Shown here piece after piece: positions 1 through 55,006 of a stretch of DNA of 64,000 nucleotides. Position 1 is the stretch's first letter, and the number at the start of each line of letters is the position of its first letter. The translations under genes were made by a program, and so were the position numbers. Below the pieces are notes generated by a model. It ran no database searches. It had not been told where the DNA came from and saw only the letters and a program-made list of their open reading frames with translations. Origin of the DNA: Bdellovibrio sp. NC01 (GTDB taxonomy: Bacteria > Bdellovibrionota > Bdellovibrionia > Bdellovibrionales > Bdellovibrionaceae); NCBI RefSeq assembly GCF_006874625.1, contig NZ_CP030034.1, forward strand, positions 1,426,001-1,490,000, written 5' to 3'.

Positions 1-1186
1 CGATAACCTCACGGTCCAAACCGCCCGTAATTTCTGATTCCTCTTCGATCAAGCCAACGCCACCGCTACCAGTGCCACCAGCTGCAAGGCCACCCATACC
101 AGCAGCGTTTTTACCGCCACCGCGACCGTTCGTAGAAATCATCACGCCACTGCCGTTACCTGCAGCACCCCAGTCACGACCAGAACGTTCCATGCTGCCG
201 ACTGCAGCCAAGGCACGACCTGAAGGACCCGAACCTGCTTTCACGCCATTTGCGAAAATCACGTTGTTAGATTTTGCACCTTGCGCAGAAACTTTGCCGA
301 TCAATTGCGAAATACGACCGTTCGAAATCGATTTCATCATGTTCGCCAATTTACCGCCGCCACCACCTGTTGGCATTTCTGCCTTAGGACCTGCAGCAGG
401 AGCCGCTTGCACTGCCACTTGCGCAGGTTTTGCAGCTTCAGCTTTTTTACGCTTAGGTTTGATTTCAGTTTTAACAATAATTTTTTGCGCCACTTTTGGT
501 GGAGCCTCTGCCACAAGGTGGTTCGACTTCGGAGAGAAGATCGCCAGTGTAATGAAGAAAGCCGCAGCTCCCAACATCAACACCACACCTTTTTTAGAGT
601 CTTCATCAACCAATTGACTTGGAGAGAAGCGTGCAAGTCTTGCAGCATCTTCCAAAGACAATGTTCTTTGGCTGACTTCAAGATCGCCAACCATTTGGCG
701 GTGCCATTCCGGAGACGGCACACATGCGATCTTTTCAGAGCTCAATGCAGGTTGGAATTTTTTATTCAAAGGAAGGATCTTCGTTTGAATAACAACACCA
801 GCTTGTTTCACCATGAACAATTGGAATTGTTTGCCAAGTTCTTGTGATTCACGGCCTGCTTTTTCAAGGCGCATGTAAAGATCGACTTCTCTTTTCACCG
901 GAGTGAAAGAAAGAGTGCAATCTTCTAACTCAAGCACTTGATCTTTATTCAATGACAAAGCAGGGGAACCAGAGGCTTTTGCGCTTGTCATAAGATCCAT
1001 ATTTACGTACCACCACTGGTTGTCACGGAATTCAAAAAGACCTTGAATGCCTTTTGTACCAGGAGCGATCGAGATCACATCGGCATCGCGAGATGAACCG
1101 AATGTTTGTGTATTATTTGTTGAACGCAACTTCCAAGTTTTTGCAGTCCCGTTCTTAAGAGACTGACGTACAATTAACGTGAGCAT
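1..1186 (-). CDS. FHA-like / TonB-like envelope transducer, GltG/GltJ (AgmX) type, partial
   Basis: Starts at ATG 1186 and runs off the left edge with about 395 codons visible. The N-terminal ~95 residues look like a degenerate FHA domain (a GSSRDAD stretch near residue 30 and a WWYVN strand near 58-62, but no clear S..H). One membrane segment lies near residues 200-218, followed by a Lys/Ala/Pro stretch (about 225-262) and a long Gly-rich linker. The last visible residues, GGLDREVI, begin the AgmX/PglI-type TonB-like C-terminal domain seen complete in the paralogue at 48894-50117. This layout (cytoplasmic sensor, one TM, periplasmic TonB-like tip) is that of Myxococcus GltG/GltJ, which couple the AglRQS motor to the envelope. 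It is the last visible gene of a minus-strand operon starting near 8657. Function in this organism is inferred. Confidence 0.72.
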   Translation of the reverse strand, partial: MLTLIVRQSLKNGTAKTWKLRSTNNTQTFGSSRDADVISIAPGTKGIQGLFEFRDNQWWYVNMDLMTSAKASGSPALSLNKDQVLELEDCTLSFTPVKREVDLYMRLEKAGRESQELGKQFQLFMVKQAGVVIQTKILPLNKKFQPALSSEKIACVPSPEWHRQMVGDLEVSQRTLSLEDAARLARFSPSQLVDEDSKKGVVLMLGAAAFFITLAIFSPKSNHLVAEAPPKVAQKIIVKTEIKPKRKKAEAAKPAQVAVQAAPAAGPKAEMPTGGGGGKLANMMKSISNGRISQLIGKVSAQGAKSNNVIFANGVKAGSGPSGRALAAVGSMERSGRDWGAAGNGSGVMISTNGRGGGKNAAGMGGLAAGGTGSGGVGLIEEESEITGGLDREVI

Positions 1187-1203: not shown

Positions 1204-1452
1204 CTAGTTATTCAGGTACAAAGCAGATTCGCGAATACGGCCATCCATATCCTTCTGCACGTCATAAAGAGGCATAAATTTAATCCCTCTTTTTTGCACA
1301 AGGTAGGCACCGTCAGGATTACGAATCGTACCCTTGAGGTTCATGTCACCAAAATTTACTTCTTGGACTTTACGGACTGTTCTTGTTTTGGCAAAGCCAG
1401 TCGCAGTTCCCAAGAGAATGAAAGCGATCATCGCCGAGATGAAAGTTTTCAC
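1204..1452 (-). CDS. small exported protein of locus A
   Basis: 82 residues from a GTG start at 1452, supported by a GGAGG ribosome-binding site six bases upstream. Residues 1-21 form a signal peptide (hydrophobic core, AXA-like end GFAK). The mature part carries a VNFGDMNLKG motif and ends with a DGRIRES stretch. No known family is recognised. The gene sits between the giant TPR protein and the TonB-like transducer, the same slot filled by the 93-residue exported protein at 50127-50408, which has F-K-F-D-G-S-A-L-R-G and EDRIQQD at matching places. Conserved position and motif suggest a real, small periplasmic component of the TolQ/ExbD machine; this is inference. Confidence 0.75.
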   Translation of the reverse strand: MKTFISAMIAFILLGTATGFAKTRTVRKVQEVNFGDMNLKGTIRNPDGAYLVQKRGIKFMPLYDVQKDMDGRIRESALYLNN

Positions 1453-1466
1453 CTGTACCCTCCATA

Positions 1467-4400
1467 CTACAAGTCTCCTGAGATTACGTTCTGACCGACT
1501 TTGTTTTGATTTTTCAAATACTGTATTTTCTTACCTAACCAATCTCTCAAATCCATTTGCGAGCTTGCTTTGAACGCTTTTTCATAAGAGTCCAAGGCAA
1601 GAGTTGGGCTTCCTTTGTAAGTCTCAAAGATATGAGCTTGTTCTAGAAGGAAGTCGACATTGTCTTTCTTACCACCCAACAAATCTTTCAGAGTGCTGAG
1701 AGCTTTATCGACTTCACCTTTCTGAGCATAGGCTTCGCTCATCAAGGTTCCCACATTGAAAGTATACAACTGTTCTTTATTCAGAGAAGATAATTTTTCA
1801 ATTGCTCTAGTAAAATCTCCCTCTGAGAAAGCCTTCACGCCAGCGAAAGTTTGCATTTCTGTCGAAGGCATTTGCATGTCCAAAACTTTTTCGAAAAATT
1901 GCATTGCTGCATTCAAGCCATCGTCTTTATAAATCAAGCGTGCTTTTTGATATACGAATGGAGCTGCTTCAGGTTGAAGCTTCAATGCGGCTTCAATCAT
2001 CCACTGAGCTTTCTCTGTATAACCGCGAGCTTCCGCGCCAACGCTTGCATAGAACAAACCTAGTGCGCGCGTGTCTTTATTTTTCGCAAGCTCTAAACCC
2101 AATTTTTCAACGATATCGAACTGTCTAGAACCATAACAATTTCCTGCAATTTCGATCGGATTTACTTTCGCAAGTTGACCCGTTAAAACTGCGGCTTTGT
2201 TACAAGTTTTTCCTGCGCGAGTCTCAAGACGAGACACCTTACCGATGCTCATATCCATTGAAGCTGGCAAGAAAGCACCCATTTTATCAGCCGCAGGGTA
2301 TTGCACATCCGGAGTGATCGTTTGATCCACACGAATATTTGCAATCACACGACCTGTCGTTGCTGATTGACCCTTAGAAGCCGCAAGAACTTTCAATTTA
2401 TTTTCGTTCTCGTTCTTCTTTTCTTGGATCGGGTTGATCAATTTAGCCAACTCACCACGCAATTGCTGTTGTTCTTCCGGTTTCAAGGAAGCAGGCAATG
2501 GCATGCTTGATAAAGCTTCGATGTAGTTGCCGTAACAACGGTCGATACCGCGCATAGCTTCCAGCTGTTGATACGGATCTTTACTCATTTTCAAAGCTGT
2601 CACGTAAGCCGTTTGAGCTTTATCCAACTTTTCAGTCTTGATACCAAGAACTGTTGCGAATTTCTCTTCACGAGCTTTCACGCTTTGTTGGATCAATTCT
2701 TTTTCAAGAACTTGCGCTTGGATCAAACGAGCTTCCGCACGAACTTCTGCAGGAACACTACGGCCGTTTGCTTTCATCGAAAGATCGAAAGCAGCAGTCA
2801 TTTTGCCAGCGGCCAACAAAGCTTTCGCTTTGTCGATCATGATCTGAGTCGTATATGGTTCGATCCCTTTAGCTTGGATCTGATTTTGGATCTTCGCTAG
2901 CTCCGCAGAGTTCGGTTCACCTTTATATGAATCCATCAATTTGCCATAGATGCGCTCTAACGTTTTGTTATCAGCACCAGCCAGGATTCCCATATAAGCC
3001 GCACGAGCATCTTTGATTTTCTTTTCTAGCAAGTAGATGTCAGCAGCCGTTTCAAGTTGTGTGTTGCGACCTTTTTTATCAAGGTCGGCAATTTTCACCA
3101 AAGTTTCTGCCGATTTTGAAATTTGGCCGACGTCAGCGTAAGCTTTCGCAGCATCTTTCAAAGCATCCAAGTTCTTTTTATCGTCTGGATATTTCGAAAC
3201 GTATTTTAAAGACAATTCAGCAGCATCAAAGACTTTGCCTTCAGTATAAAGAATACCGATAGCTTGCCATTGAGCGTCTTGAGCTAACTTCGAACCTTCG
3301 TGTTCTTTAGCGTAAGCGATAAGCTTTTGCGCAGCTTGGTCTTTGTCACCAGTTTTCGCAAACTCTTGAACTTCCGTAAAGTGAGCTTCTTCGAAGATTT
3401 TGCCCATATCTTTTTTGCGGGCTTCGTCTGATGAAGAAGTCATAACTTGTTTCGAGAAATCTTTGATACCAGCGTAGTCTTTCTTGATGTTCAGCATATC
3501 CAACACCAAGTCTTCAGATTTCTTTTTGATATCTGCGTTTTCAGAGCCTTTAACGACAGTCAAAGGTTTCAACCACTTTTCAGCTTCTGGGTAGTTTTGC
3601 TCTTCGTAAGCAATGTGACCCATTTTGAATTTCACTGATGTCGCGAATTTGCCAGCAGGATATTTAGCTAAGTAGTTTAAAGCCAATTCTTTACGTTCAG
3701 CCTCTTTCAAAGCATCTTTCTTTTGATCGATAGACTTTTCTTTAGAGAATAGGGCCGCGTAGTTGGCATCATGGCGAAGAGGTTCTTCTTTAGAAGCATC
3801 GCCCACCATTTTGTACTGAACGCTGGCGTCATCGTATTTACCCAATTGGAATAACAACTCTGCATAGGCAAAGCGTGTTTTCAAATCTGGTTTCGTTGGA
3901 TCTTCGTTATCCAACATCAATTTGAAAAGTTTCTGAGTCAAATTCGAGAACTCAGTGTTTTGTTTGTTTTTAGTCCAGATGTCCCACCATTTTTTCGTCA
4001 TATCAAGACTTGTATGGCGGAAACCTTCGTTACAAGAAGCTTGTGCAACGTCTGCTTTTTGCATTGTTTTCCAAGCAGAATCTTTGCGGCAAAGATCGCT
4101 GGCCAATTGCAAATGCTCTAGAACCAAATCACGTTTCTTCAAAGTTTCGTTCGCTTCAACCAAGGCCAAGTGAGATTTCACAACCTCTGGACCCGATGGG
4201 CGCTTATCGATGTATTCGCCCAAGAAGATATTCATCTCTTTTTGGCGAGAATGCGAATCGTAAAGTTTCGCAAGGTCCGACATTGATTGACCTAGTTCGT
4301 CTTCAGTCGTGATGTCTTCGAAGAAAGAATAAAGTTTATTAGCAGGGTAAGAGTCACCAATGAAGACCGTCAAGTCACGCAAAGCTTCTTTACGCAAGTT

Positions 4401-5174
4401 GTGGCGGTTCGTTGGAACTTCACCTTCTTGAAGTGGCGGATTGTTTTTAACAACCTCGATCAACTTCTTAATGCCGTTATCAGAGTCATGAAGATTATAG
4501 TAAGCCCATGCTGCTTTATACATACCGTATGAATACACACGGCTTTGTGGGAATTTTTCTAAGCGTTGGAATTGGTCCAAAGCGGCAGCAAATTTACCTT
4601 GATCATACAACAACTCACCCAACGCCAACGTACCATCTGGTACCAATGGAGATTTAGGGAATTTTTGTAGTAGGCGAGCGTAAAGATTATCAGATTCTTT
4701 AAATTGACCCACTTGCTGATGAGCAAAGGCATTGTTGAAAAGAACTGAGTCCATTTGTTTGAAGCCAGGGAATTCCGCTTCAATTTTATTATAGATTTTG
4801 ATGGCGCGTTTAATCGCCTCAGCACCTTTTTCGTTTGGTACTGGGAAAGAAGAAAGCTTCATCAGCGGTGTATCTTTGTGTAAATCAAAGAAACGACCTG
4901 ATTTAGATCTTCTCATGTAAAGCTCGGCAAGGCGGTACCATAGGTCCGCCTCATTTTTCGAGCCTTTTTGTTTTTTAAGAATAGCTTGAAGAGACTCGAT
5001 CGCCTTATTTTCAGAGCGCGTGATCATGATCTCGCTGCTTAATGCTTTTCTTTCGTTGTCATCTTCGTTGCCGGATAGACGCACTTCAGGCAAAAGGCCC
5101 TTTTCGGTTTCTGCAAAACAGTAAATCGAAAAAAGATGTATTGCTAGAAGAAGAAATACTGTGCGCAGTTTCAT
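1467..5174 (-). CDS. giant TPR-repeat exported protein of locus A
   Basis: About 1235 residues. The chosen start is ATG 5174, six bases after GGAG; a TTG at 5186 is in frame but lies inside that Shine-Dalgarno and the upstream gene. Residues 1-22 are a signal peptide (ending IYCFA). The rest is almost entirely helical repeats of TPR type with spaced A/Y/G patterns such as LWYRLAELYMRRS, LALGELLYDQGKF and YAELLFQLGKY. There is no lipobox and no enzyme motif. Myxococcus gliding loci encode comparable periplasmic TPR proteins (GltC, GltD/AgmU, GltE/AglT). The gene lies directly after two ExbD-like genes, and its paralogue in locus B is 50405-53368 (987 residues). A scaffold linking inner-membrane motor and outer membrane is the likely job, by analogy. 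Confidence 0.8.
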   Translation of the reverse strand: MKLRTVFLLLAIHLFSIYCFAETEKGLLPEVRLSGNEDDNERKALSSEIMITRSENKAIESLQAILKKQKGSKNEADLWYRLAELYMRRSKSGRFFDLHKDTPLMKLSSFPVPNEKGAEAIKRAIKIYNKIEAEFPGFKQMDSVLFNNAFAHQQVGQFKESDNLYARLLQKFPKSPLVPDGTLALGELLYDQGKFAAALDQFQRLEKFPQSRVYSYGMYKAAWAYYNLHDSDNGIKKLIEVVKNNPPLQEGEVPTNRHNLRKEALRDLTVFIGDSYPANKLYSFFEDITTEDELGQSMSDLAKLYDSHSRQKEMNIFLGEYIDKRPSGPEVVKSHLALVEANETLKKRDLVLEHLQLASDLCRKDSAWKTMQKADVAQASCNEGFRHTSLDMTKKWWDIWTKNKQNTEFSNLTQKLFKLMLDNEDPTKPDLKTRFAYAELLFQLGKYDDASVQYKMVGDASKEEPLRHDANYAALFSKEKSIDQKKDALKEAERKELALNYLAKYPAGKFATSVKFKMGHIAYEEQNYPEAEKWLKPLTVVKGSENADIKKKSEDLVLDMLNIKKDYAGIKDFSKQVMTSSSDEARKKDMGKIFEEAHFTEVQEFAKTGDKDQAAQKLIAYAKEHEGSKLAQDAQWQAIGILYTEGKVFDAAELSLKYVSKYPDDKKNLDALKDAAKAYADVGQISKSAETLVKIADLDKKGRNTQLETAADIYLLEKKIKDARAAYMGILAGADNKTLERIYGKLMDSYKGEPNSAELAKIQNQIQAKGIEPYTTQIMIDKAKALLAAGKMTAAFDLSMKANGRSVPAEVRAEARLIQAQVLEKELIQQSVKAREEKFATVLGIKTEKLDKAQTAYVTALKMSKDPYQQLEAMRGIDRCYGNYIEALSSMPLPASLKPEEQQQLRGELAKLINPIQEKKNENENKLKVLAASKGQSATTGRVIANIRVDQTITPDVQYPAADKMGAFLPASMDMSIGKVSRLETRAGKTCNKAAVLTGQLAKVNPIEIAGNCYGSRQFDIVEKLGLELAKNKDTRALGLFYASVGAEARGYTEKAQWMIEAALKLQPEAAPFVYQKARLIYKDDGLNAAMQFFEKVLDMQMPSTEMQTFAGVKAFSEGDFTRAIEKLSSLNKEQLYTFNVGTLMSEAYAQKGEVDKALSTLKDLLGGKKDNVDFLLEQAHIFETYKGSPTLALDSYEKAFKASSQMDLRDWLGKKIQYLKNQNKVGQNVISGDL

Positions 5175-5175
5175 T

Positions 5176-5673
5176 TTATTCTCCAACTAAAGTCACTAGT
5201 TTCAATTGCGGGAAGCCCGCCATTGAAGCTGTATACATGACCTTTCTCAAAGTTGCATAAGGAAGCTCTTTATCTGCTTGAAGCAAGATACGGCCTTCTT
5301 TGACGCCAGCTTTATCTTGAGAGTTTTTAGCAAGCTTATCTAGCTCTTCGAAAAGAGGCTTGATGAAGTTTGTGTCTTTCTCTTCAAGATCTTGCGGAAG
5401 AAATTCCGCATCTTTAACGTCGGCAATCTTTGTTTGGTCAATTTTAAGGGCTGTTCCAGACAGCGAAAGCTTAATCGCTTCCGTTGGATTCGATTGCGAA
5501 GCCGAAGATGGCAAGCGCAAACCATTTTCTGGAATGATCTGAACATCTGACGTCGAATAAGTTTGCAACAAGAACACGAGGAGGATCGTGAACATGTCGG
5601 TCATCGACGTGATATTCAAAGCAAATGTGGAGTTCTTTTTAAGGTTTGGCTCATAACGACGTCTGCGTGACAT
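5176..5673 (-). CDS. ExbD/TolR-family proton-channel subunit (Asp intact), locus A
   Basis: 165 residues. A short basic cytoplasmic tail (MSRRRRYEP), one membrane helix and a periplasmic domain give the ExbD/TolR/AglQ/AglS layout. The helix reads LNITSMTDMFTILLVFLL; Asp26 aligns with the Asp of the family's N-V-T-P-L-V-D motif that carries protons. The periplasmic domain ends with the usual ILLQADKELPYATLRKVMYTA strand-helix pattern. It is the second ExbD gene after the TolQ-like gene; the stop overlaps the ribosome-binding site region of the downstream TPR gene, so translation is probably coupled. Together with 5678-6223 and 6282-6983 it would form one motor complex. Confidence 0.9.
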   Translation of the reverse strand: MSRRRRYEPNLKKNSTFALNITSMTDMFTILLVFLLQTYSTSDVQIIPENGLRLPSSASQSNPTEAIKLSLSGTALKIDQTKIADVKDAEFLPQDLEEKDTNFIKPLFEELDKLAKNSQDKAGVKEGRILLQADKELPYATLRKVMYTASMAGFPQLKLVTLVGE

Positions 5674-5677
5674 GTTG

Positions 5678-6223
5678 TTAGCCCTCCATCATGTTAGAGA
5701 AAATGATTTCTGGAAACATATACGGTGTATCTACGTTCTTCCCTTGTTTCGTATCAAACACTGGAAATTTTACTGATGAATCGTGAGCTTGACGAACTTC
5801 ATCCATGATTTTCACGATTTCCTTGTAGGGAACTTTCGCATCTGGATTCAGTTCAAGCTTAAAGATTTCAGGATGTAGTTTTTTAACTTCAACTAATTTT
5901 TGGTGAAGGGCAGGAAGGTCGAAGGCGCCATCTTTCAATGGAACTTCTTCTACTTTCTCTTGGCCTTTTTCAGTCACCACAATGCGGAAACCATCTTTCG
6001 CGTCGACATCCAATGCGATGTTTGTCGGCAAGTTGTCTTTGTCTTGACGTTGGATAGCTTCATTCACTACTTGTGGCAATTCTGTTTCGATAACCATCAT
6101 TTGCACGAAGGCTGAGGAAACCAGAAGAACCGGAACTAGTTTTACCATCACAGCAAGCAGGGGAGCCAAGTCCAACTCGAACTCACTGTGGTGATTAATT
6201 TTTAACTTTTTTGCGCGTCTCAT
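5678..6223 (-). CDS. ExbD/TolR-family subunit lacking the transmembrane Asp, locus A
   Basis: 181 residues with the ExbD layout: basic N-terminus (MRRAKKLKINHH), one membrane helix, and a periplasmic domain with the family's P-Y-K-E-I-V-K-I-M-D-E-V helix near residues 133-145. The helix reads ELDLAPLLAVMVKLVPVLLV. Aligned to the family motif N-V-T-P-L-V-D-V-M, the proton-carrying Asp is Ala24 (codon GCT, 6154-6152), and Lys28 falls one helical turn later. The other ExbD genes in the window (5176-5673, 53858-54319, 53368-53853) all keep the Asp. The reading frame is intact and lies in the operon, so this is not a decaying gene. A structural or regulatory subunit in a mixed ExbD pair is my inference. 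Confidence 0.88.
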   Translation of the reverse strand: MRRAKKLKINHHSEFELDLAPLLAVMVKLVPVLLVSSAFVQMMVIETELPQVVNEAIQRQDKDNLPTNIALDVDAKDGFRIVVTEKGQEKVEEVPLKDGAFDLPALHQKLVEVKKLHPEIFKLELNPDAKVPYKEIVKIMDEVRQAHDSSVKFPVFDTKQGKNVDTPYMFPEIIFSNMMEG

Positions 6224-6281: not shown

Positions 6282-6983
6282 TTAAGAGACCTTTGCGCCT
6301 GGAGTCGGAGGTGTCATCGCTGGCACGTGATCAGGGAACACGTTTTGGCGAGTCAAGTTAGGGATGTGTGCACTTGTAAGAAGCTCTGCAAGTTTACCGC
6401 ATTTTTCCATCATCTCTTCAAGCAACTCGTTTTGACGAGAAGTTAGGAAAGAGAAGAACACCATCGCAGGGATCGCAACCGCAAGACCCAACGCTGTTGT
6501 ATACATGGATACCGAGATACCTTGTGCAAGCAACGCTTGTTTTTGTGCAGGGTCAGCTTGTGCAACCGCTTGGAACGACAGGATAAGACCGTGGATCGTA
6601 CCAAGAAGACCTAGCAATGTTGCAACGTTGGCAAGCATTGAAAGATAGTGCAGGCGTTTTGTATACAGCGGTGTATTTTCAGACAAAGCGATGTCGTGCG
6701 CTTGGAAAATAGTGTCGTCATCACGGTCTGCTTTTTCCAAAATAGTTTTGAAAGCTGCAGCCAATGGCTTTTTCTCAAGCTGAGCACACATCAAGAGTGC
6801 TTCATCAAGCTTTTTAGCTAGAACCAAAGTTTGGATCTTGCCCATGAACTCTTCCGTGTTCATACCGTATTCTTTATAGAGCATCTTTGCTCGTTCAGCT
6901 ACCAGGATCAAAGATCCGATACCAGTTAATAGAATTGTCCAGCCAACGAAACCAGATTCATTCATGAATTTAAGAAATGCCAT
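6282..6983 (-). CDS. TolQ/ExbB/AglR-family motor subunit, locus A
   Basis: 233 residues from ATG 6983, chosen because GGAGG lies six bases upstream; the frame is open further back but inside the upstream gene (14-base overlap). Three membrane segments: residues about 12-30, and a pair near 115-140 and 155-185. The signature LANVATLLGLLGTIHGL and the following GISVSMYTTALGLAVAIPA match the TolQ/ExbB/MotA channel helices. The protein pairs with two ExbD-like subunits directly downstream, the same one-plus-two arrangement as AglR-AglQ-AglS of Myxococcus. It would use the proton gradient to drive envelope-spanning partners. The C-terminal tail is rich in Pro (about residues 215-233). Confidence 0.92.
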   Translation of the reverse strand: MAFLKFMNESGFVGWTILLTGIGSLILVAERAKMLYKEYGMNTEEFMGKIQTLVLAKKLDEALLMCAQLEKKPLAAAFKTILEKADRDDDTIFQAHDIALSENTPLYTKRLHYLSMLANVATLLGLLGTIHGLILSFQAVAQADPAQKQALLAQGISVSMYTTALGLAVAIPAMVFFSFLTSRQNELLEEMMEKCGKLAELLTSAHIPNLTRQNVFPDHVPAMTPPTPGAKVS

Positions 6984-7581
6984 TTGTTTCCTCCTTGGCA
7001 ACGCCACCGCGCGACCATTTTGTAAGTTGAGCAACACCGTGTTCTTGCACTTCGAGGAAACGGACAGCATAGTGCAGACCGGATTTAACATTAAGTCTTT
7101 GCTTCGAATAATTCTTACGAACGATCTCGCAAAGAACGTTGAACGATACTGGATTCACATCAGAAGTTCTGAAGTGAAGCAGAATTTTTTGACCTGGTAA
7201 AAGAAGCGGATCGTTCAAAAGAACGAGAGCTCCGTTTTCACTCACAGAGAGTGTTTGACCATCGAAAAACGTTTGATCGTTGTGCGCATAAACAGGCGTC
7301 ACAAGGTCAACACGTGGTACCTTTCTATCCTTGAAAGAACCTGCCAAGTGATCTTTAGTTTCGATCAAACGGCAAAGACGGTCTTTAGAGAATTCTTGCA
7401 AATCACCTACGAGAGTCCAATTCTCAAGGTGCGGAGCCCATACGTAATTATAATCGTAAAGCTCGCTGTTTTGAATCATAGTGATCAAGGATTTGTACTC
7501 GTAAGGACCGTATTTCATGTCCCCACGAAGGATGTACCACTCTTGACCTTTTGTAGTTGTTGCTTGTACCCCACCACTCAT
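6970..7581 (-). CDS. GYF_2 (DUF4339) plus PilZ domain protein
   Basis: 203 residues, soluble, no signal. Residues about 13-60 are a GYF_2-type domain: W15, YGPY at 24-27, and the paired Trps at 48 and 55 (VWAPHLENW). Residues about 85-180 are a PilZ domain with RKVPR (R86xxxR90) and SVSENG (112-117) in place of the usual D/NxSxxG; c-di-GMP binding is plausible but the first Asp/Asn is Ser. The gene overlaps the TolQ-like gene by 14 bases. In Myxococcus a GYF domain is part of GltJ's cytoplasmic region; here it is a separate protein with a PilZ partner. A c-di-GMP-responsive regulator of the motor is my inference. Confidence 0.83.
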   Translation of the reverse strand: MSGGVQATTTKGQEWYILRGDMKYGPYEYKSLITMIQNSELYDYNYVWAPHLENWTLVGDLQEFSKDRLCRLIETKDHLAGSFKDRKVPRVDLVTPVYAHNDQTFFDGQTLSVSENGALVLLNDPLLLPGQKILLHFRTSDVNPVSFNVLCEIVRKNYSKQRLNVKSGLHYAVRFLEVQEHGVAQLTKWSRGGVAKEETNGIS

Positions 7582-7592
7582 ACAGCACCTTC

Positions 7593-8657
7593 TTACAATT
7601 TGATCGATTTCGGATCGAAGTTAATTTTCACACTTGAATTCGCTGATGGAACCGCGCTGCCGTGGAACGTGATGATCATAGTTGCTGCATCATAAGTCCA
7701 ACCGTTCGTTGCGTTGTTTGGAACCGAAGCGCCATCAACAGTCACTACGATTGATTCTGGAATCGGCTCACGAGACAATTTGAATGCACTCGAAAGCTGG
7801 ATGATTTTATCAGAGATCAATTGTAGAGATGTACCGAAGTCAGAGCACAAAGAAGATCTTACGCCACCAGTTGCATCAGCCATCGCATTGTAGCGCTGAG
7901 AAATCTTTTGTGCCGCATTTGGATCGCCCGCCATCAACTGAGAACGGCAAGCAGCATCTTGTACTGAAATCGTGCTTACTGAATAGTTTCTGCCGTTTGC
8001 AGTACCGCCAGTGTATGAATCCAAGAAGTCAGTATATTTAGAAATAGGGAATAGGCCTGAGTAATTGTAGTCTTCATGAAGTGAAGTCGTATTATTCGAG
8101 AAATCGTCCTCGTCACTTACGATAATCACTGCAAGAAACGCATCGGCGCGACGGAAACCAAGTGATACGTTGTAAGGCTCGTTACCTAATGATTGGTAAA
8201 GAGACTCAAACGCACGTTCGTCACCGTTACCGTTAATGCCAACCTTAGCATTTGTTGCGAATACGGAACTCAAGTTCGAAGTATTTTTATCCATCACAAA
8301 CACACCTGAATGTGTTGTGCCGTTACCATCACGGATTTTAGCTTTATCGCTTGTGAAGAATTCTTTCTCCCAGCCGTCAGTCGTAACAACTGACATATGG
8401 AAGTCATAACTATATTGGTTGAAGCGTGAGATGAAAGACTGGAAGTTGTTAGCCAAGTTAGTTTGTGAAGTAGCCATAGAGCCTGAGTTGTCGATCACCC
8501 AAAGGATGTCGATCTTCTTAGGGATATAGACAGCTTCTTGCGTGAAGCTAGCTGTATCAGCAAGCGTAGAGTACGAGCCTCCACCTTTAGCGCAACCGGC
8601 AAGCATTGCTAACGCTGAAGCGAATGTCATTGCTTTGCGTGCGACTTGATTAACCAT
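7593..8657 (-). CDS. VWA-domain lipoprotein, locus A
   Basis: About 354 residues. ATG 8657 has AGGAGG eight bases upstream and is preferred; ATG 8663 is only two bases from it. The signal peptide ends in the lipobox LAGC, so it is a lipoprotein. A von Willebrand A domain follows, with the metal-binding DNSGS motif (in ILWVIDNSGSM) and SDEDD in the second loop. The C-terminus has a NGWTYD...ITFHG strand pair that recurs (GGWLYD...HLSG) in the VWA lipoprotein ending locus B (44342-45616), so the two are paralogues. It is the first gene of the locus A operon. The role is unknown; VWA domains usually mediate protein contacts, and an outer-membrane adhesion or assembly role is possible. Confidence 0.83.
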   Translation of the reverse strand: MVNQVARKAMTFASALAMLAGCAKGGGSYSTLADTASFTQEAVYIPKKIDILWVIDNSGSMATSQTNLANNFQSFISRFNQYSYDFHMSVVTTDGWEKEFFTSDKAKIRDGNGTTHSGVFVMDKNTSNLSSVFATNAKVGINGNGDERAFESLYQSLGNEPYNVSLGFRRADAFLAVIIVSDEDDFSNNTTSLHEDYNYSGLFPISKYTDFLDSYTGGTANGRNYSVSTISVQDAACRSQLMAGDPNAAQKISQRYNAMADATGGVRSSLCSDFGTSLQLISDKIIQLSSAFKLSREPIPESIVVTVDGASVPNNATNGWTYDAATMIITFHGSAVPSANSSVKINFDPKSIKL

Positions 8658-8710
8658 ACTCATGCCCTCCTGAGCAACCCCACCACGTTTGTGTTTCGTG
8701 ATGAAGTTAG

Positions 8711-48893: not shown

Positions 48894-50117
48894 TTAGCGA
48901 CTGCTTACGCGAGTCAGCTCAAATGGATAGAGAACATCAACATTCACTTTGCCTACAGGGCGAGGGAACTGCCATGTACGCATTCTATCAAGCATGCAGT
49001 TTTCAACCATGCGCGAACCTAAAGACGACTGCGATACTTTCGCCGTTGTGATACGACCTGCTGGACCGATCACGAAATCGACTGCCACGCGACCACCAAG
49101 AGTTGGAGCCGCTTGCAAACCTTTTTCATAACAATAGATGATTTGACCTCTGTTGCGGTTGATAACAGCGATGATTTGGTCACGATCTAAACCGCCTTCA
49201 ACAGTTGCTTCTTCATCAAGAGGAAGACTGACTGCGCTTGTGCCGCCAACCATATTCAATTTGCCGTAACCAGCTTTACCGCCACCAACACCACGAGTAC
49301 CGTAGCCACCCGCAGATTGGGCACGACCGCCTTCACCCGCGGAACCTGCGATCAAACCAGAACCAGGCATATAACCTTTGATACCACCACGGCCTGCTGA
49401 ACCAACGCCGCCACCGCCGCTGCCTGTACCGGCTGCACGGATTGCTTTCATTGAGCGAGGATCCAAACCTTCATAACCTTTAGCACCAGTTGGGATACCA
49501 CCCAAAGCGGCCAAAGCACCAACGCGTTCAACGTTTACGGCTTTCGCTGTATTCACTTTGTAAGGTTTTGTTTTAAGTTTATTCGCAACCGGGCGATAAA
49601 CTTTGTTCGTTTGTTTCAACTTATGCTCTGACACTTTGACGTGCGGAGCCGGTTGAGCTTTTTCAGGTTTTGTTTCGTCTTTAGGAAGAACGATCGTCAC
49701 TAATTGCGGCTCTTCTTTTTTAGAGAAGTAATGAGCAATAACCCATGAACCAAGCATTAATGCAAACAACGCCGCCAAGTGACCCAACGCTGTTTTTTGC
49801 ATGATGATTTTAAGATCTTCTTTATCGTTTTCTTCTGGAAGGTAATAGATCGGGCTGTTGTCGACTTTAGCGCCGGCAACACGCACTGAACCAACACCCG
49901 GAATCACCATACCAGCTTCAGAAATTTCTGAAAGATTGATGGTTTTAAGAAGACGATAATCAACCTTGTTTTCATCAAGTGATTCAAGACGGGTATACGC
50001 TTCAACTCTGCGTTTATCAGTCAGATAAACGAGATTCAAAGCTTCAGCTTCAACCGAGAAGGTACGAACCTTCTGGCCCAACTGATTTTGTAAGATTAAA
50101 AGCTTTGTTGTTCCCAT
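48894..50117 (-). CDS. TonB-like envelope transducer, GltG/GltJ (AgmX) type, locus B
   Basis: 407 residues. A cytoplasmic N-terminal domain (about 1-100) has no clear FHA, GYF or zinc-finger motif. One membrane helix follows (about 110-130), then a Lys/Pro-rich stretch, a Gly-rich linker (about 225-305; GTGSGGGGVGSAG), and a C-terminal AgmX/PglI-type domain (about 310-407) with EGGLDRDQIIAVINRN, QIIYCYEKGLQ and VDFVIGPAGRI. The C-terminal domain is TonB-like and would contact outer-membrane parts. Paralogue of the protein at 1-1186. It would be driven by the TolQ/ExbD complex at the start of the operon. Confidence 0.85.
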   Translation of the reverse strand: MGTTKLLILQNQLGQKVRTFSVEAEALNLVYLTDKRRVEAYTRLESLDENKVDYRLLKTINLSEISEAGMVIPGVGSVRVAGAKVDNSPIYYLPEENDKEDLKIIMQKTALGHLAALFALMLGSWVIAHYFSKKEEPQLVTIVLPKDETKPEKAQPAPHVKVSEHKLKQTNKVYRPVANKLKTKPYKVNTAKAVNVERVGALAALGGIPTGAKGYEGLDPRSMKAIRAAGTGSGGGGVGSAGRGGIKGYMPGSGLIAGSAGEGGRAQSAGGYGTRGVGGGKAGYGKLNMVGGTSAVSLPLDEEATVEGGLDRDQIIAVINRNRGQIIYCYEKGLQAAPTLGGRVAVDFVIGPAGRITTAKVSQSSLGSRMVENCMLDRMRTWQFPRPVGKVNVDVLYPFELTRVSSR

Positions 50118-50126
50118 TTCTGAATC

Positions 50127-50408
50127 CTAGTTTCTTTCTTGATCTTGTTGGATGCGGTCTTCGAACTGTGTTCTTCCGCCCAGAAGATCTTCAAGTAATT
50201 TATCGTTTTCTACTGCGGCCTTCGTACTAAGTGAGGTCTGATATTTCCCGCGAAGGGCAGAACCGTCGAACTTAAACGAAGTGCCAAGTTTTGGCTTAGT
50301 ACCCTCGACTTTTTTCCCTTCATTAGGGCTTGTTTTCGCGAGGGCGCTAGCTCCAAAGCTGCTAATCAGAGTTAGCAAAAGGGAGGCCACTAAAACTGCT
50401 GTTTTCAT
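50127..50408 (-). CDS. small exported protein of locus B
   Basis: 93 residues; the start overlaps the stop of the TPR gene (ATGA). Signal peptide 1-24 (GASALA). The mature part contains FKFDGSALRG and EDRIQQD, placed as in the 82-residue protein at 1204-1452. No known family is recognised. Same slot between the TPR protein and the TonB-like transducer in both loci. Confidence 0.72.
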   Translation of the reverse strand: MKTAVLVASLLLTLISSFGASALAKTSPNEGKKVEGTKPKLGTSFKFDGSALRGKYQTSLSTKAAVENDKLLEDLLGGRTQFEDRIQQDQERN

Positions 50409-53368
50409 AGGCTTTTTCCTTTCTGGATGTGATTTAAACGCGCTTCCAGATAAGAGGGCATTAACGGATGGCCAATTTTTGTCTCGATAGATTTCAAGTT
50501 TTCAAGATCCTTCACGCTATCAGGGTTTTCAGACACTGATTTGCGAGCCGAAGCAAGATCACGAGCCGACAATGATGAAGAGCCATAAGCATCTTCGACC
50601 GCCGTCTTCATTTTGCCGCGACCTGGAAGCTCTTCCAACATCTGCATTTCACGAGAAAGCAGCTTTTGGATCTCTGGGCGCGCCATACGGTAGTCGCGAG
50701 CCAAAGAGGCAAGAGCAGGGGATGAATTCCATAATTCGTTCATTTTCGTCTGAGCCGTTTTCGCCTTCATCAAGAACGGTCTTGATTTGGCTTTCAAGGC
50801 TTCAACGTATTGCTTTTGTTGAGCCGCCGTCAGACCCTTTGGCATATCAGCGCCTGACAAATCCTTAACAAAGCGTTGATTTTCAATCGCTACGATATTC
50901 AAAGCGACCAACTGAGCTGTGATGTCTTTTGTTTGAATAGACTCAGTCAAAGTTTGGTCTGCTTTAGCCAACAATTTCATACGTTGAGTAATACCCTTCG
51001 TAAGATTTTTGTCAGAACCATCGTCAATTTTGTGCTTCGCGATCTGATTTTGGAACTCATTAAGCTTGTTGTAGAACTCTTGTTTGCGAATGAAAGAGTT
51101 CGCAGATTGTTTGCGCATCTCTTTCATTTCTAAAATCGATTGCAAGCCTGCTTTGTTTCCAGTTTTTGCGTAAACCAACAAAGTCGTTTCATTCAACATT
51201 GAAGGTCTTGCACGCAAGTCAGCAGATTGGATTTTCAACTCTCTAACAGGGTTGCTTGAAAGAAGAACCAAACGCTCGCGGATAACAAGAGCACGTTCAC
51301 CAGAAATACCTAAAGCCAAAGCTTCTTTATAGTGTTTTTCCGGATTGATATCAGCCAAGTCAGCCAAAGTACCAAGACGGAAAGCTTTTTCTTTCGCCGA
51401 TACTTTTGAATCGTTCATTTTCAAAGCGGTATTATAAGCGTTTTTGAAATCAAGCTTACGTTCGTAGTAACCAACAAGTTGTTCTAAATACTGCTGCTTC
51501 TTCGCTTCTGGAGTTTCAGGAGTATTGATCAACGCATACAAAGATTTTGCATAAACGTCGTCTTCGCCCAGTTTTTTCGCAACGACGCTTAAGTTTGTGA
51601 AAATCAAGATGCGTTCGTCTGGTTTTGCACCATCCAATTTCGTCTTCAAAACTGTCTTCATCACTGATTTCAATTCTGATTTTGTCGAATGCGGATTGTT
51701 TGCGACGTCAGCCACTTGATTCATCAAAGCACGACGAGCCACACCTGAAAACTCAGGGGCGTTTGCCGGCATCATCTCTGCGTAGTCATTTGCATTTTCT
51801 TGGATGGCTTCGTCGTCTTTCAACTGAGCGTAAGAATCCAAGGCAAGGTCCGCGGATTTTTTACGAAGATCTGCTTTCGTGTTTTTATCACGAGCCAAAT
51901 CGTTAAACATCTTCGCCGCGTCTTTCAACTGCTTAGCTTGATAAAGCTGGTAAGCTTGTTGGTAACGAACTTCGTAGTATTTTTCGTCTTTTGCGGAATT
52001 CTTTAAGAAGTAAGCGTAAGCCTCTTTCTTAAGAACGGGATCGCCAGATTTTTCAGCAGCAGCAACTTCATTCAGCATCGCTTCGTTTTGCTCTTTAGCT
52101 GAATAAGTGCGGCCTTCGGCGATTGTGCGGTAAAGTTTGATAGCGGTTGGGTATTTACCCATGTCCATCGCAACTTGTGAACCACGTTGTACCATTTCCT
52201 TGTCGCCAGGGAATGTGTTTGCGTAAATGATATACGCGTTCAAAAGGTCTTGGTCAGGTTTTACTTTTTTAGAGCGGTGAAGTTCCGTTACATAACGCTT
52301 CATCGTCTTTTTCAATTCTTCGCACTTGTTCGAATCGTCGCAATCAGTATTTTTGAAAGCTTCAGCAGCTTTCGCGAAGTCTTGCGTTGATTTGCCAGTT
52401 TCACCACGGTCGTAGTTCACTTGTGCCATACGAACAAAAGCTTCAAGACGTTCTTGTTTTGTCAAATCAGGTTGATCCATATAACGCGTCAGGATCAAGT
52501 GTGCCGCTTGTTTTTGACCAACGCGGTCTGCTTCCTGAGCGAAATTCAAGATCAATTCTTTGCGTTTTTCTTTAGGAGTCAAAGTTTCATAACGAGCGAT
52601 TTCTTTAATCGTGATCTCTTTACGAGCATAGAAAGTACCCAGGTCGCGAACGATATCAGTGTGGAAAACTGGATCGTAATTGCTGCCAGCTTCCGTGTCT
52701 TTCGTGATTTTAGTAGGGTCTTTCAACAAGCCCTCTAATGTGTCGATAGCAGAAGTCAGCTTGTCTGTGTTGAAGTCACACCAAGCCATGTTGTAGATAG
52801 CTAAAGATTTGTTTTCAAGATTTTTGTCTTTCAACGCGATCACGTAGTGTTCTTTAGCTTCTTTGAATTTGCCTTTTTGGAATAGCAAATCGCCCAATGA
52901 AGCGTGAGATCTAGAAACGATACCAGCATCGATAGACTTCGCTTTAGCTTCTTTAATAATACGTTCAAACAACGCAATAGCTTGATCTTGTTGACCAGCC
53001 ATTTCGTACAAGTGAGCCAATTGGAACAAGATCGGTCCGTGCTCGTTCAATTTCACTTCAGTCAAAAGAGTTTCATAAATTTTGATAGCGCGTTGACGGT
53101 CGTCTTTAGAACCTTTGCAGTTTTCGCAGTTCGCTTCAACTTCAGCCATGAAACGAGTACGTGCGCGTTCCGCCAAAACGTCAGCAAGACGTTGTTGTGT
53201 TGGAATCCAAGAAGGGTCTTTGCGATCCATCAAGTCCAAAACACGGTCCATCTTTTTGATAACCAAGTCTTGCGTGTCTGCATTCATCTTCTCTGCATGA
53301 ACCGGATGAGAGAAGAGCATACCCGCAAGAACCACATTTAAAAAAAGGAGGTGTTTTGTGTTTTTCAT
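50405..53368 (-). CDS. giant TPR-repeat exported protein of locus B
   Basis: 987 residues with a signal peptide (1-25, ending HPVHA). TPR-type helices run through the protein (ILFQLAHLYEMAGQQDQAI, HASLGDLLFQKGKFKEA, AIYNMAWCDFNTDKLTSAI), with a CENC pair near residue 83 and coiled helical content toward the C-terminus. It is shorter than its locus A counterpart (1235). Likely periplasmic scaffold between motor and outer membrane, by analogy to Glt TPR proteins. The stop of the upstream ExbD gene shares a base with this start. Confidence 0.82.
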   Translation of the reverse strand: MKNTKHLLFLNVVLAGMLFSHPVHAEKMNADTQDLVIKKMDRVLDLMDRKDPSWIPTQQRLADVLAERARTRFMAEVEANCENCKGSKDDRQRAIKIYETLLTEVKLNEHGPILFQLAHLYEMAGQQDQAIALFERIIKEAKAKSIDAGIVSRSHASLGDLLFQKGKFKEAKEHYVIALKDKNLENKSLAIYNMAWCDFNTDKLTSAIDTLEGLLKDPTKITKDTEAGSNYDPVFHTDIVRDLGTFYARKEITIKEIARYETLTPKEKRKELILNFAQEADRVGQKQAAHLILTRYMDQPDLTKQERLEAFVRMAQVNYDRGETGKSTQDFAKAAEAFKNTDCDDSNKCEELKKTMKRYVTELHRSKKVKPDQDLLNAYIIYANTFPGDKEMVQRGSQVAMDMGKYPTAIKLYRTIAEGRTYSAKEQNEAMLNEVAAAEKSGDPVLKKEAYAYFLKNSAKDEKYYEVRYQQAYQLYQAKQLKDAAKMFNDLARDKNTKADLRKKSADLALDSYAQLKDDEAIQENANDYAEMMPANAPEFSGVARRALMNQVADVANNPHSTKSELKSVMKTVLKTKLDGAKPDERILIFTNLSVVAKKLGEDDVYAKSLYALINTPETPEAKKQQYLEQLVGYYERKLDFKNAYNTALKMNDSKVSAKEKAFRLGTLADLADINPEKHYKEALALGISGERALVIRERLVLLSSNPVRELKIQSADLRARPSMLNETTLLVYAKTGNKAGLQSILEMKEMRKQSANSFIRKQEFYNKLNEFQNQIAKHKIDDGSDKNLTKGITQRMKLLAKADQTLTESIQTKDITAQLVALNIVAIENQRFVKDLSGADMPKGLTAAQQKQYVEALKAKSRPFLMKAKTAQTKMNELWNSSPALASLARDYRMARPEIQKLLSREMQMLEELPGRGKMKTAVEDAYGSSSLSARDLASARKSVSENPDSVKDLENLKSIETKIGHPLMPSYLEARLNHIQKGKSL

Positions 53369-53853
53369 TATTTTGGTACTACCGCGAATTTAAGTTTTTC
53401 AATGCCAGCTTGAGATCCCGCTTTAAGCAATGGATCGAGATCGGCATATTTCATCTCGGTATCGGCTTGGATCATCAACTCAACTTTGTCTTCTTTGGTT
53501 TTTTTCAACTCAGCCAATTTGTTGCTTAGTTGTGAACCAGACACAGCTTTATCGTTCAAGAAGTACGAACCCTTCTCGATACGCAGGATCGCAGTTTCTT
53601 TATCGATACCTTGGCTGTGTGAAGCTTGAGGAAGATTCATACGCGAAGGAACGGAAGTTTCGATACCGCTGTTTTGCGTTCCGATAAGCAAATAGATAAC
53701 GATGATTGAAAAAGCGTCGATCAAAGAAGTTAAAGGCAATGCGATCGCAAGGTTGCTAGCGATGCCTTTTTTCTTTTTATTTCCGTTTTTCAAGACCATC
53801 GCATCCATCAGTGGAGAAGCTTTTTGGTCTACTTTTAAAAAGCTCGTTTTCAT
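53368..53853 (-). CDS. ExbD/TolR-family subunit 2, locus B
   Basis: 161 residues from ATG 53853, four bases after the previous stop; the frame is open further upstream but inside the previous gene. A basic stretch (KNGNKKKKGIAS) leads into the membrane helix LPLTSLIDAFSIIVIYLLI with Asp46 in the proton-carrying position. The periplasmic part ends with MIQADTEMKYADLDPLLKAG, the ExbD pattern. Pairs with 53858-54319 and the TolQ-like gene. Confidence 0.88.
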   Translation of the reverse strand: MKTSFLKVDQKASPLMDAMVLKNGNKKKKGIASNLAIALPLTSLIDAFSIIVIYLLIGTQNSGIETSVPSRMNLPQASHSQGIDKETAILRIEKGSYFLNDKAVSGSQLSNKLAELKKTKEDKVELMIQADTEMKYADLDPLLKAGSQAGIEKLKFAVVPK

Positions 53854-53857
53854 AAAA

Positions 53858-54319
53858 TTACCCAAGAGGGGACAAGCCCACACCTTCAAATTGAGATTGT
53901 TTCAACTGATCCATGATTTTGATCACATCGCCGTAAGAGCTTTGAGCTCCGGGGCGAACGATACCAGTTTTCAGTTCAGGGAATTTTGTTTTCAAATCGG
54001 CTAATTTGGCTTCAAGGCCTGCCCAGTTCACACCTTTCGTAGTTTTAGCTACGCGTGTTTCTGATGTTTGAAGCTTCGGAAGGTCGCGCACAGAAAGTTG
54101 TACGCTACCATCTGCATCCAAAGTCACCCACAAAGACGGAGGATTTTTAGCGCCTGATGTGGAGTTGTCTCCAATAGCTTGCTTTGTATCCAATGTGCCG
54201 ATTTGAACCCATACCGCTGTCAACAACAGAAAGCAGATCAACACAGACAAGATGTCCAGGATCGGCAAAATGTTGATATCAAAATTCAACTTATCGTTGT
54301 TGTTGCTGGATGCGCTCAT
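53858..54319 (-). CDS. ExbD/TolR-family subunit 1, locus B
   Basis: 153 residues. The N-terminus is polar (MSASSNNNDK), with helix FDINILPILDILSVLICFLLL and Asp22 at the conserved site; the match to the family motif N-V-T-P-L-V-D is good. The periplasmic domain ends GVVRPG-type (TGIVRPGAQSSYGDVIKIMDQL). This slot corresponds to the locus A gene at 5678-6223, where the Asp is Ala. Confidence 0.9.
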   Translation of the reverse strand: MSASSNNNDKLNFDINILPILDILSVLICFLLLTAVWVQIGTLDTKQAIGDNSTSGAKNPPSLWVTLDADGSVQLSVRDLPKLQTSETRVAKTTKGVNWAGLEAKLADLKTKFPELKTGIVRPGAQSSYGDVIKIMDQLKQSQFEGVGLSPLG

Positions 54320-54337
54320 AGCTTACGCCCTTATCTA

Positions 54338-55006
54338 CTATTGTTTCTTGTCTGAAACTGGTTCGTAGTGGAAACCCAATTGGATGAACAAGTTCAAAGC
54401 CGCTTTGTTCAAATCGTCAGTTAAACGAGATGCACGGTTTTGAAGAACCGCATACATAATCAAAGCAGGAACTGCCACGATCAAACCGTACGCCGTTGTA
54501 TTCATCGCTAATGAGATACCTTGAGAAAGGATTGTCGCTTTTTCTACTGGGTTCGCGTTGGCGATACCTGCGAAAGAGTGGATCAAACCTGTGATCGTAC
54601 CTAATAGACCCAACAATGTCGCAACGTTAGCGAACATCGCAAGGAAACCAATGCGTTTTTCTACGCGCGAGTTTTCTTCTAATAGGATTTCGTCCATTTT
54701 AAGTTGGATTTCTTCTTTTCCGCCCATATCAAGAGCCGCTTGGATACCTGCAGAGGCAACAACACCCAATGGTTCTTTCATGCCCAATTGCATAGAGCGA
54801 CGAAGAGCTTTATCGAGGTGACCTGCACGGATATCTTCCGCAAGAAGTTTAGAAAGCTCTTTTTGATTCGTTTTACGAGAAACGAACAAAGCGTGAGAGC
54901 GTTCCAAGATAATAGCTACAGATACGATCTGAGCTGCCAAAATCGTCCACATCCAAATTGCATCGCCAGATGTGAAGCCAGAACCAAGTGACATTAGGAA
55001 TTGCAT
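54338..55006 (-). CDS. TolQ/ExbB/AglR-family motor subunit, locus B
   Basis: 222 residues, three membrane helices (about 15-35, 112-135, 155-180). The channel signature FANVATLLGLLGTITGLIHSF is followed by ILSQGISLAMNTTAYGLIVAVPALIMY. Very close in key segments to the locus A homologue (6282-6983). GGAGG precedes ATG 55006, and a sigma54-type promoter lies about 37 bases upstream of the start. First gene of locus B. Confidence 0.93.
   Translation of the reverse strand: MQFLMSLGSGFTSGDAIWMWTILAAQIVSVAIILERSHALFVSRKTNQKELSKLLAEDIRAGHLDKALRRSMQLGMKEPLGVVASAGIQAALDMGGKEEIQLKMDEILLEENSRVEKRIGFLAMFANVATLLGLLGTITGLIHSFAGIANANPVEKATILSQGISLAMNTTAYGLIVAVPALIMYAVLQNRASRLTDDLNKAALNLFIQLGFHYEPVSDKKQ

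Follow-up and report, generated by a model that had tools for sequence, protein, structure and literature searches.

In this work we describe a protein of Bdellovibrio sp. NC01 in which a GYF domain is joined to a PilZ domain, and which is encoded in an operon for a gliding-type motor. The protein is a real, conserved and motor-associated receptor candidate, which has been partly anticipated. We give about an even chance to the reading in which it is a cytoplasmic cyclic-dinucleotide receptor acting on the gliding-type stator AglR/Q/S, with its GYF domain docked on the C-terminal tail of AglR. The analysis suggests that a signalling nucleotide might control gliding by way of a GYF-PilZ protein that could grip a proline-rich tail of the motor.

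The operon runs in the order vWA lipoprotein, GYF-PilZ, AglR-Q-S, TPR, CglF-like, GltG, OMP barrel and GltC. The window, i.e. the whole stretch of 64,000 nucleotides that was analysed, holds the following genes of this operon, given here with the relevant domains, motifs and tail:

7593..8663, minus strand: vWA/MIDAS lipoprotein with the lipobox LAGC, first gene of the operon and counterpart of Bd1483 (MIDASAdhsBdello E 5.9e-17 and CglD E 1.4e-13, both below the cut-off)
6970..7581, minus strand: GYF-PilZ protein, 203 aa (Pfam GYF_2 and PilZ), syntenic counterpart of B. bacteriovorus HD100 Bd1482
7390..7539, minus strand: GYF_2 domain, residues 15-64 (Pfam; PDB sequence match 7z3c)
7018..7326, minus strand: PilZ domain, residues 86-188 (Pfam and Foldseek)
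7312..7326, minus strand: RxxxR motif, RKVPR, residues 86-90 (both Arg in 58/58 homologues)
7231..7248, minus strand: second PilZ motif, SVSENG, residues 112-117 (S replaces D/N)
6282..6983, minus strand: AglR-like stator protein of the TolQ/MotA family, 233 aa (MotA_ExbB E 5.4e-26; helical TolQ-like AlphaFold2 model)
6285..6359, minus strand: disordered proline-rich C-terminal tail of AglR, ending in MTPPTPGAKVS, candidate GYF ligand
5678..6223, minus strand: AglQ-like ExbD/TolR protein (ExbD E 4.6e-21)
5176..5673, minus strand: AglS-like ExbD/TolR protein (ExbD E 2e-17)
1467..5174, minus strand: TPR protein, 1235 aa, in a GltD/E-like position (TPR families)
1204..1452, minus strand: CglF-like protein, 82 aa (NF033764 E 2.3e-4, below the cut-off)
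2..1186, minus strand: GltG-like protein with a myxo_SS_tail C-terminal domain, cut by the window edge (NF033760 E 6e-38, below the cut-off; NF033768 E 4e-31, above the cut-off)

With an AglR/Q/S-type motor and its GltG, GltC and OMP partners the operon is of the Agl-Glt type; the GltG and GltC profile matches in it were strong, yet under the equivalog cut-offs. The initial annotation had placed a transducer at 1-1186; the gene is there, but the window edge cuts it, and in full it encodes a GltG-like protein of 485 aa. Counterparts of AglR/Q/S, GltG, GltC, the OMP barrel, CglF and CglD of the Myxococcus xanthus Agl-Glt machine lie in a single NC01 operon, which differs from the M. xanthus machine by including a PilZ protein. 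No Rfam riboswitch match was found within the window, and promoter and terminator scans gave sites no commoner than in shuffled sequence.

The order and content of the operon fit Bd1483-Bd1480 of HD100, and by synteny alone the GYF-PilZ protein is the counterpart of Bd1482; that PilZ gene occupies the 5' end of a gliding operon, one of four (PMC3271064). Bd1482 is already known as a possible receiver of DgcA signals, as proposed by Hobley et al. in 2012 (PMC3271064). What the present work adds is the GYF half, the AglR tail, the loss of D/N from the second PilZ motif across the subfamily and the phylum-wide linkage. The open-access text that we found on Bd1482 makes no mention of a GYF domain or of the AglR tail, and no open-access paper was found in which GYF is joined to PilZ in the sense of a gliding receptor. 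As for the neighbours, deletion of bd1483, which encodes a MIDAS lipoprotein, gave no predation defect (PMC11003981), and bd1480 is aglQ (PMC9140294); in the literature searched we found no mutant of the motor in a Bd1480-type operon.

The fusion of GYF to PilZ noted initially was borne out by Pfam, with GYF_2 at E 1.4e-8 (34.8 bits, cut-off 25.8) and PilZ at E 1.9e-11 (44.6 bits, cut-off 22.5) as the sole families matched in the 203-aa protein. Since both families were matched by all 58 aligned homologues, the architecture is not due to chance. The GYF signature GPF/Y and the conserved aromatics are present, and W15, G25, P26 and W55 are invariant among the 58. An AlphaFold2 model built with these homologues gave a pLDDT of about 90 for the GYF domain, where the fold had been expected at residues 13-60, and about 93 for PilZ, the helical linker between them being less certain. 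Searching with the GYF half, Foldseek returned 7z3c (the GYF domain of M. xanthus GltJ) and 7rup (the GIGYF2-TNRC6A complex); the PilZ half returned the c-di-GMP receptors BcsA, MotI/DgrA, Alg44, YcgR and VCA0042, including c-di-GMP-bound PilZ structures, with the MotI structure 5vx6 among the closest folds. The overlap with the TolQ-like gene also held: the GYF-PilZ stop codon lies at 6970-6972 and the aglR start codon ATG at 6981-6983, so that the genes overlap by 14 nt, and a GGAGG precedes the aglR ATG within the GYF-PilZ coding sequence.

The best PDB sequence match of the GYF-PilZ family is the same 7z3c (AgmX, i.e. GltJ), at E 1.3e-5, and GltJ belongs to a gliding machine run by the same type of motor, AglRQS. 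This could be taken to mean, as the initial annotation did, that the GYF part of GltJ has been split off in this lineage. M. xanthus GltJ, of 674 aa (PMC3169522), lies in the membrane and has a TonB-like tail, whereas here GYF is carried by a soluble PilZ protein that lacks the zinc ribbon, the transmembrane segment and the TonB-like part. The NCBIfam GltJ profile did not match it even at E 0.1, and the neighbouring TonB-tail protein of the operon is GltG-like, not GltJ-like. On this profile and domain evidence a split GltJ was rejected and appears very improbable. A GYF-GYF protein elsewhere in the NC01 genome matched the GltJ profile at E 5.7e-8, and no protein of the genome matched it above the cut-off; none of GltH/I/J/K has been reported for Bdellovibrio (Luciano 2011, PMC3169522).

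We found a GYF-PilZ homologue in 59 of 60 near relatives. Those relatives that have a name belong to Bdellovibrio, B. bacteriovorus strain kdesi (86% identity) being an example, and a contig search with the single protein gave five named Bdellovibrio or Bdellovibrionaceae records. The family profile matched in 140 of the 144 genomes of the class at E 0.001, a threshold at which other PilZ or GYF proteins may account for many of the weaker matches, and in 144 of the 369 genomes of the phylum at E 1e-30. At least one of vWA, AglR/Q/S, TPR and GltG lay within 5 kb of 71 of the 79 distinct GYF-PilZ genes, as labelled with neighbour profiles that were built from those same loci and that name homology rather than test it. 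Outside the class, the GYF-PilZ gene of family f27 lies beside vWA-AglRQS and that of f22 beside GltG-TPR, and others are near a vWA gene. The NC01 genome itself has 20 PilZ genes and seven MotA/ExbB-type genes; only the GYF-PilZ gene of the window has a MotA/TolQ/ExbB gene within 15 kb (at 607 bp), the next-nearest PilZ gene being 17 kb off. The linkage across the class and beyond it, together with this control within one genome, indicates that the association with a gliding-type motor did not arise by accident in a single genome, and the motor context first noted for this gene recurs in other classes of the phylum.

The same survey bears on whether the protein serves the stator at all. AglR is near 44 of the 79 genes (5 kb) and a vWA gene adjoins 56, so that GYF-PilZ might instead serve to express, export or display the vWA/MIDAS lipoprotein. 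Lipoproteins of this kind are similar to CglD, a gliding protein, and the genome carries a paralogue of 264 aa with two GYF domains and a PilZ domain that adjoins another vWA lipoprotein and has no motor genes beside it. Moreover, the GYF-PilZ and vWA trees both set operon copies apart from paralogous ones in a similar manner, as if the two genes had been inherited as pairs; the GYF-PilZ operon clade and the vWA paralogue clade both have a support of 100, but the vWA operon clade has only 32. Several loci retain AglR without vWA, the overlap of the GYF-PilZ gene is with aglR and not with the vWA gene, and a cytoplasmic protein could not directly contact an exported lipoprotein. We regard service to the lipoprotein as unlikely.

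The architecture is not unique to the window, as NC01 has three GYF-PilZ proteins, the third of which stands alone. The operon type has one GYF domain and mostly S-x-S-x-N-G in the second PilZ motif; the type with two GYF domains has mostly E-x-S-x-G-G. The second pair, of a GYF-GYF-PilZ gene and a vWA/MIDAS lipoprotein gene with no motor genes, lies at locus L043 (7431-9256, minus strand) and is conserved family-wide; it is perhaps the Bd3100/Bd3099 pair, and bd3099 is a DgcA-dependent gliding gene (PMC9140294).

Proline-rich peptides are the ligands of GYF domains, and the C-terminal tail of the adjacent AglR, which we take to be cytoplasmic going by TolQ topology, is a candidate for such a ligand. 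AlphaFold2 gave this tail a pLDDT of about 50, following a confident helical TolQ-like model. In the AglR alignment the linker is variable and the end, PP...K[A/V]S, is conserved, as expected for a short linear motif. We compared the distinct AglRs linked to GYF-PilZ with 40 MotA/TolQ/ExbB paralogues of the same genomes: PP occurs in the last 30 residues of 36/44 linked AglRs and of 0/40 paralogues (Fisher p 2.9e-16), and a terminal [KR]x[AV]S in 34/44 and 0/40 (Fisher p 9e-15), p-values that overstate independence because the linked AglRs are one clade of related sequences. This clade (32 AglRs, support 0.985) has no paralogue inside it, and shared ancestry confounds the tail with the linkage.

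Some genomes offer a partial check on whether ancestry alone explains the tail. Within the clade, the AglRs of genomes G039, G125 and G099 end without the tail, and GYF-PilZ is weak or undetected there at E 1e-30. A clear member of the AglR clade was also absent from 14 of the 19 genomes searched, most of which had been picked for a weak or missing GYF-PilZ, G127 and G025 being added as special cases; AglR-clade scores were bimodal, either E 1e-82 or better, or 1e-61 or weaker. Genome G123 has the tail and no strong GYF-PilZ match, possibly owing to an assembly gap. In G127, in family f10 and in some others, GYF-PilZ lies beside an AglR without PP. The exact motif of the eukaryotic GYF ligands is PPG-hydrophobic, which the AglR tail does not contain.

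The AglRs without PP would fit a protein that regulates the gliding system with its GYF domain bound elsewhere, either to a polarity or scaffold protein of the MglA/RomR/MreB type or to a proline segment between its own domains, the AglR tail having another purpose. PP segments do occur within the linkers of some homologues with two GYF domains, and in M. xanthus gliding GltJ, which bears the 7z3c domain, is among the MglA effectors (PMC12288465). Against such a partner stands the PP tail encoded directly beside GYF-PilZ and specific to that AglR clade; we consider another partner doubtful, if still the most probable of the alternatives weighed here. Docking on AglR is the reading that we prefer.

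If docking is the role of the GYF half, the PilZ half would provide the nucleotide input. As described initially, RxxxR is kept, and the second motif has serine where its first D/N would stand. Both arginines and Gly117 are present in 58/58 homologues and Ser114 in 55/58. SVSENG departs from [D/N]xSxxG, and D/N comes first in only 4/58 homologues, most having S or E, whereas other PilZ domains of the NC01 genome often keep D/N. With D/N mostly lost, the domain may bind nucleotide weakly or not at all. The protein could then serve the motor as a constitutive structural adaptor, acting by protein contact alone as some PilZ-fold proteins do, for which the 4/58 would speak; the conservation of the arginines, Gly117 and Ser114 is unexpected had ligand binding been lost, and we regard such an adaptor as rather unlikely.

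DgcA (Bd0367) makes both cGAMP and c-di-GMP and is required for gliding of B. bacteriovorus, and a mutant in the serine at its Hypr position, S214D, does not glide; cGAMP from Bd0367 is the messenger known to be needed (PMC9140294). NC01 encodes a REC-GGDEF protein with serine at the Hypr position (FGSYVL). Because DgcA makes cGAMP, this nucleotide has to be taken seriously as a ligand candidate for the PilZ domain. The initial annotation had proposed control by c-di-GMP; a second-messenger input is plausible, but c-di-GMP as that messenger is unproven, given the replaced D/N and the role of cGAMP in gliding. That the S/E replacement affects the choice of base is speculation. A cGAMP-selective clutch, in which this replacement shifts specificity, GYF docks on the AglR tails and cGAMP directly switches on the stator, strikes us as improbable; if true, it would amount to a cGAMP receptor of the PilZ type that docks on a TolQ-family stator in a new way.

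In the preferred reading, translational coupling across the observed overlap would ensure that the GYF-PilZ protein and AglR are made together. The GYF domain would then grip the C-terminal tail of AglR, whose conservation and predicted disorder are described above; in a stator of the 5:2 type, several tails would be on offer to GYF domains. The PilZ half would bind c-di-GMP, or cGAMP from the Hypr cyclase DgcA/Bd0367, through RxxxR, as the invariant arginines suggest. Nucleotide-bound PilZ may reorient against the stator, so that the motor is licensed or engaged, as YcgR or MotI act on MotA.

YcgR of E. coli and MotI/DgrA of B. subtilis are PilZ receptors whose target is the flagellar motor, and the affinity of YcgR for MotA and FliG goes up with c-di-GMP (PMC10140304). 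The GYF-PilZ protein would work most like YcgR. YcgR and MotI, however, have another N-terminal module and are flagellar brakes or clutches; here GYF takes the place of that module, presumably as a dedicated docking device, and the stator is AglR/TolQ-like. We favour activation of the motor over braking because DgcA loss abolishes gliding, an effect that includes lowered expression of gliding genes (PMC9140294). In B. bacteriovorus bd1480, whose number puts it two genes away from Bd1482, is induced on surfaces and is expressed less without DgcA (PMC9140294). There are several such operons, and it is unproven that the present one drives gliding.

According to a 2026 review, the machinery with which Bdellovibrio glides has yet to be identified, which is named there as a major challenge (PMC13104615). 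The text of the 2022 DgcA paper reports the lower gliding-gene expression and does not contain the words receptor or effector (PMC9140294). The route of the DgcA signal to gliding is not settled, and the GYF-PilZ protein offers one concrete receptor candidate together with one candidate docking peptide. If the preferred reading is true, PilZ control of stators reaches past flagella to gliding-type motors phylum-wide.

Several further loci were noted. In genome G025 (L106, 7998-8555, minus strand) a GYF-PilZ gene is kept beside mazG despite the loss of vWA, AglR/Q/S and the other genes of the operon, which counts against the preferred reading; it is a relic or has a second role. Two other GYF proteins of NC01 are a GYF-GYF protein of 147 aa (L045, 5999-6442, minus strand), closer to the GltJ profile than the GYF-PilZ protein of the window, and a GYF-TPR protein of 991 aa (L046, 7807-10782, plus strand). 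The window also contains a second gliding-type core complex at 48894-55006 on the minus strand, without an adjoining GYF-PilZ gene and with a TolQ-like protein that has no proline tail:

48894-50117, minus strand: GltG-like protein
50405-53368, minus strand: TPR protein
53368-53889 and 53858-54319, minus strand: two ExbD/TolR-like proteins
54338-55006, minus strand: TolQ-like protein

Immediately past the gltC end of the GYF-PilZ operon (L042, 4857-11952, minus strand) lie four tandem related genes encoding proteins of 515-552 aa with similar N-termini, which are chemoreceptor-like as judged by eye.
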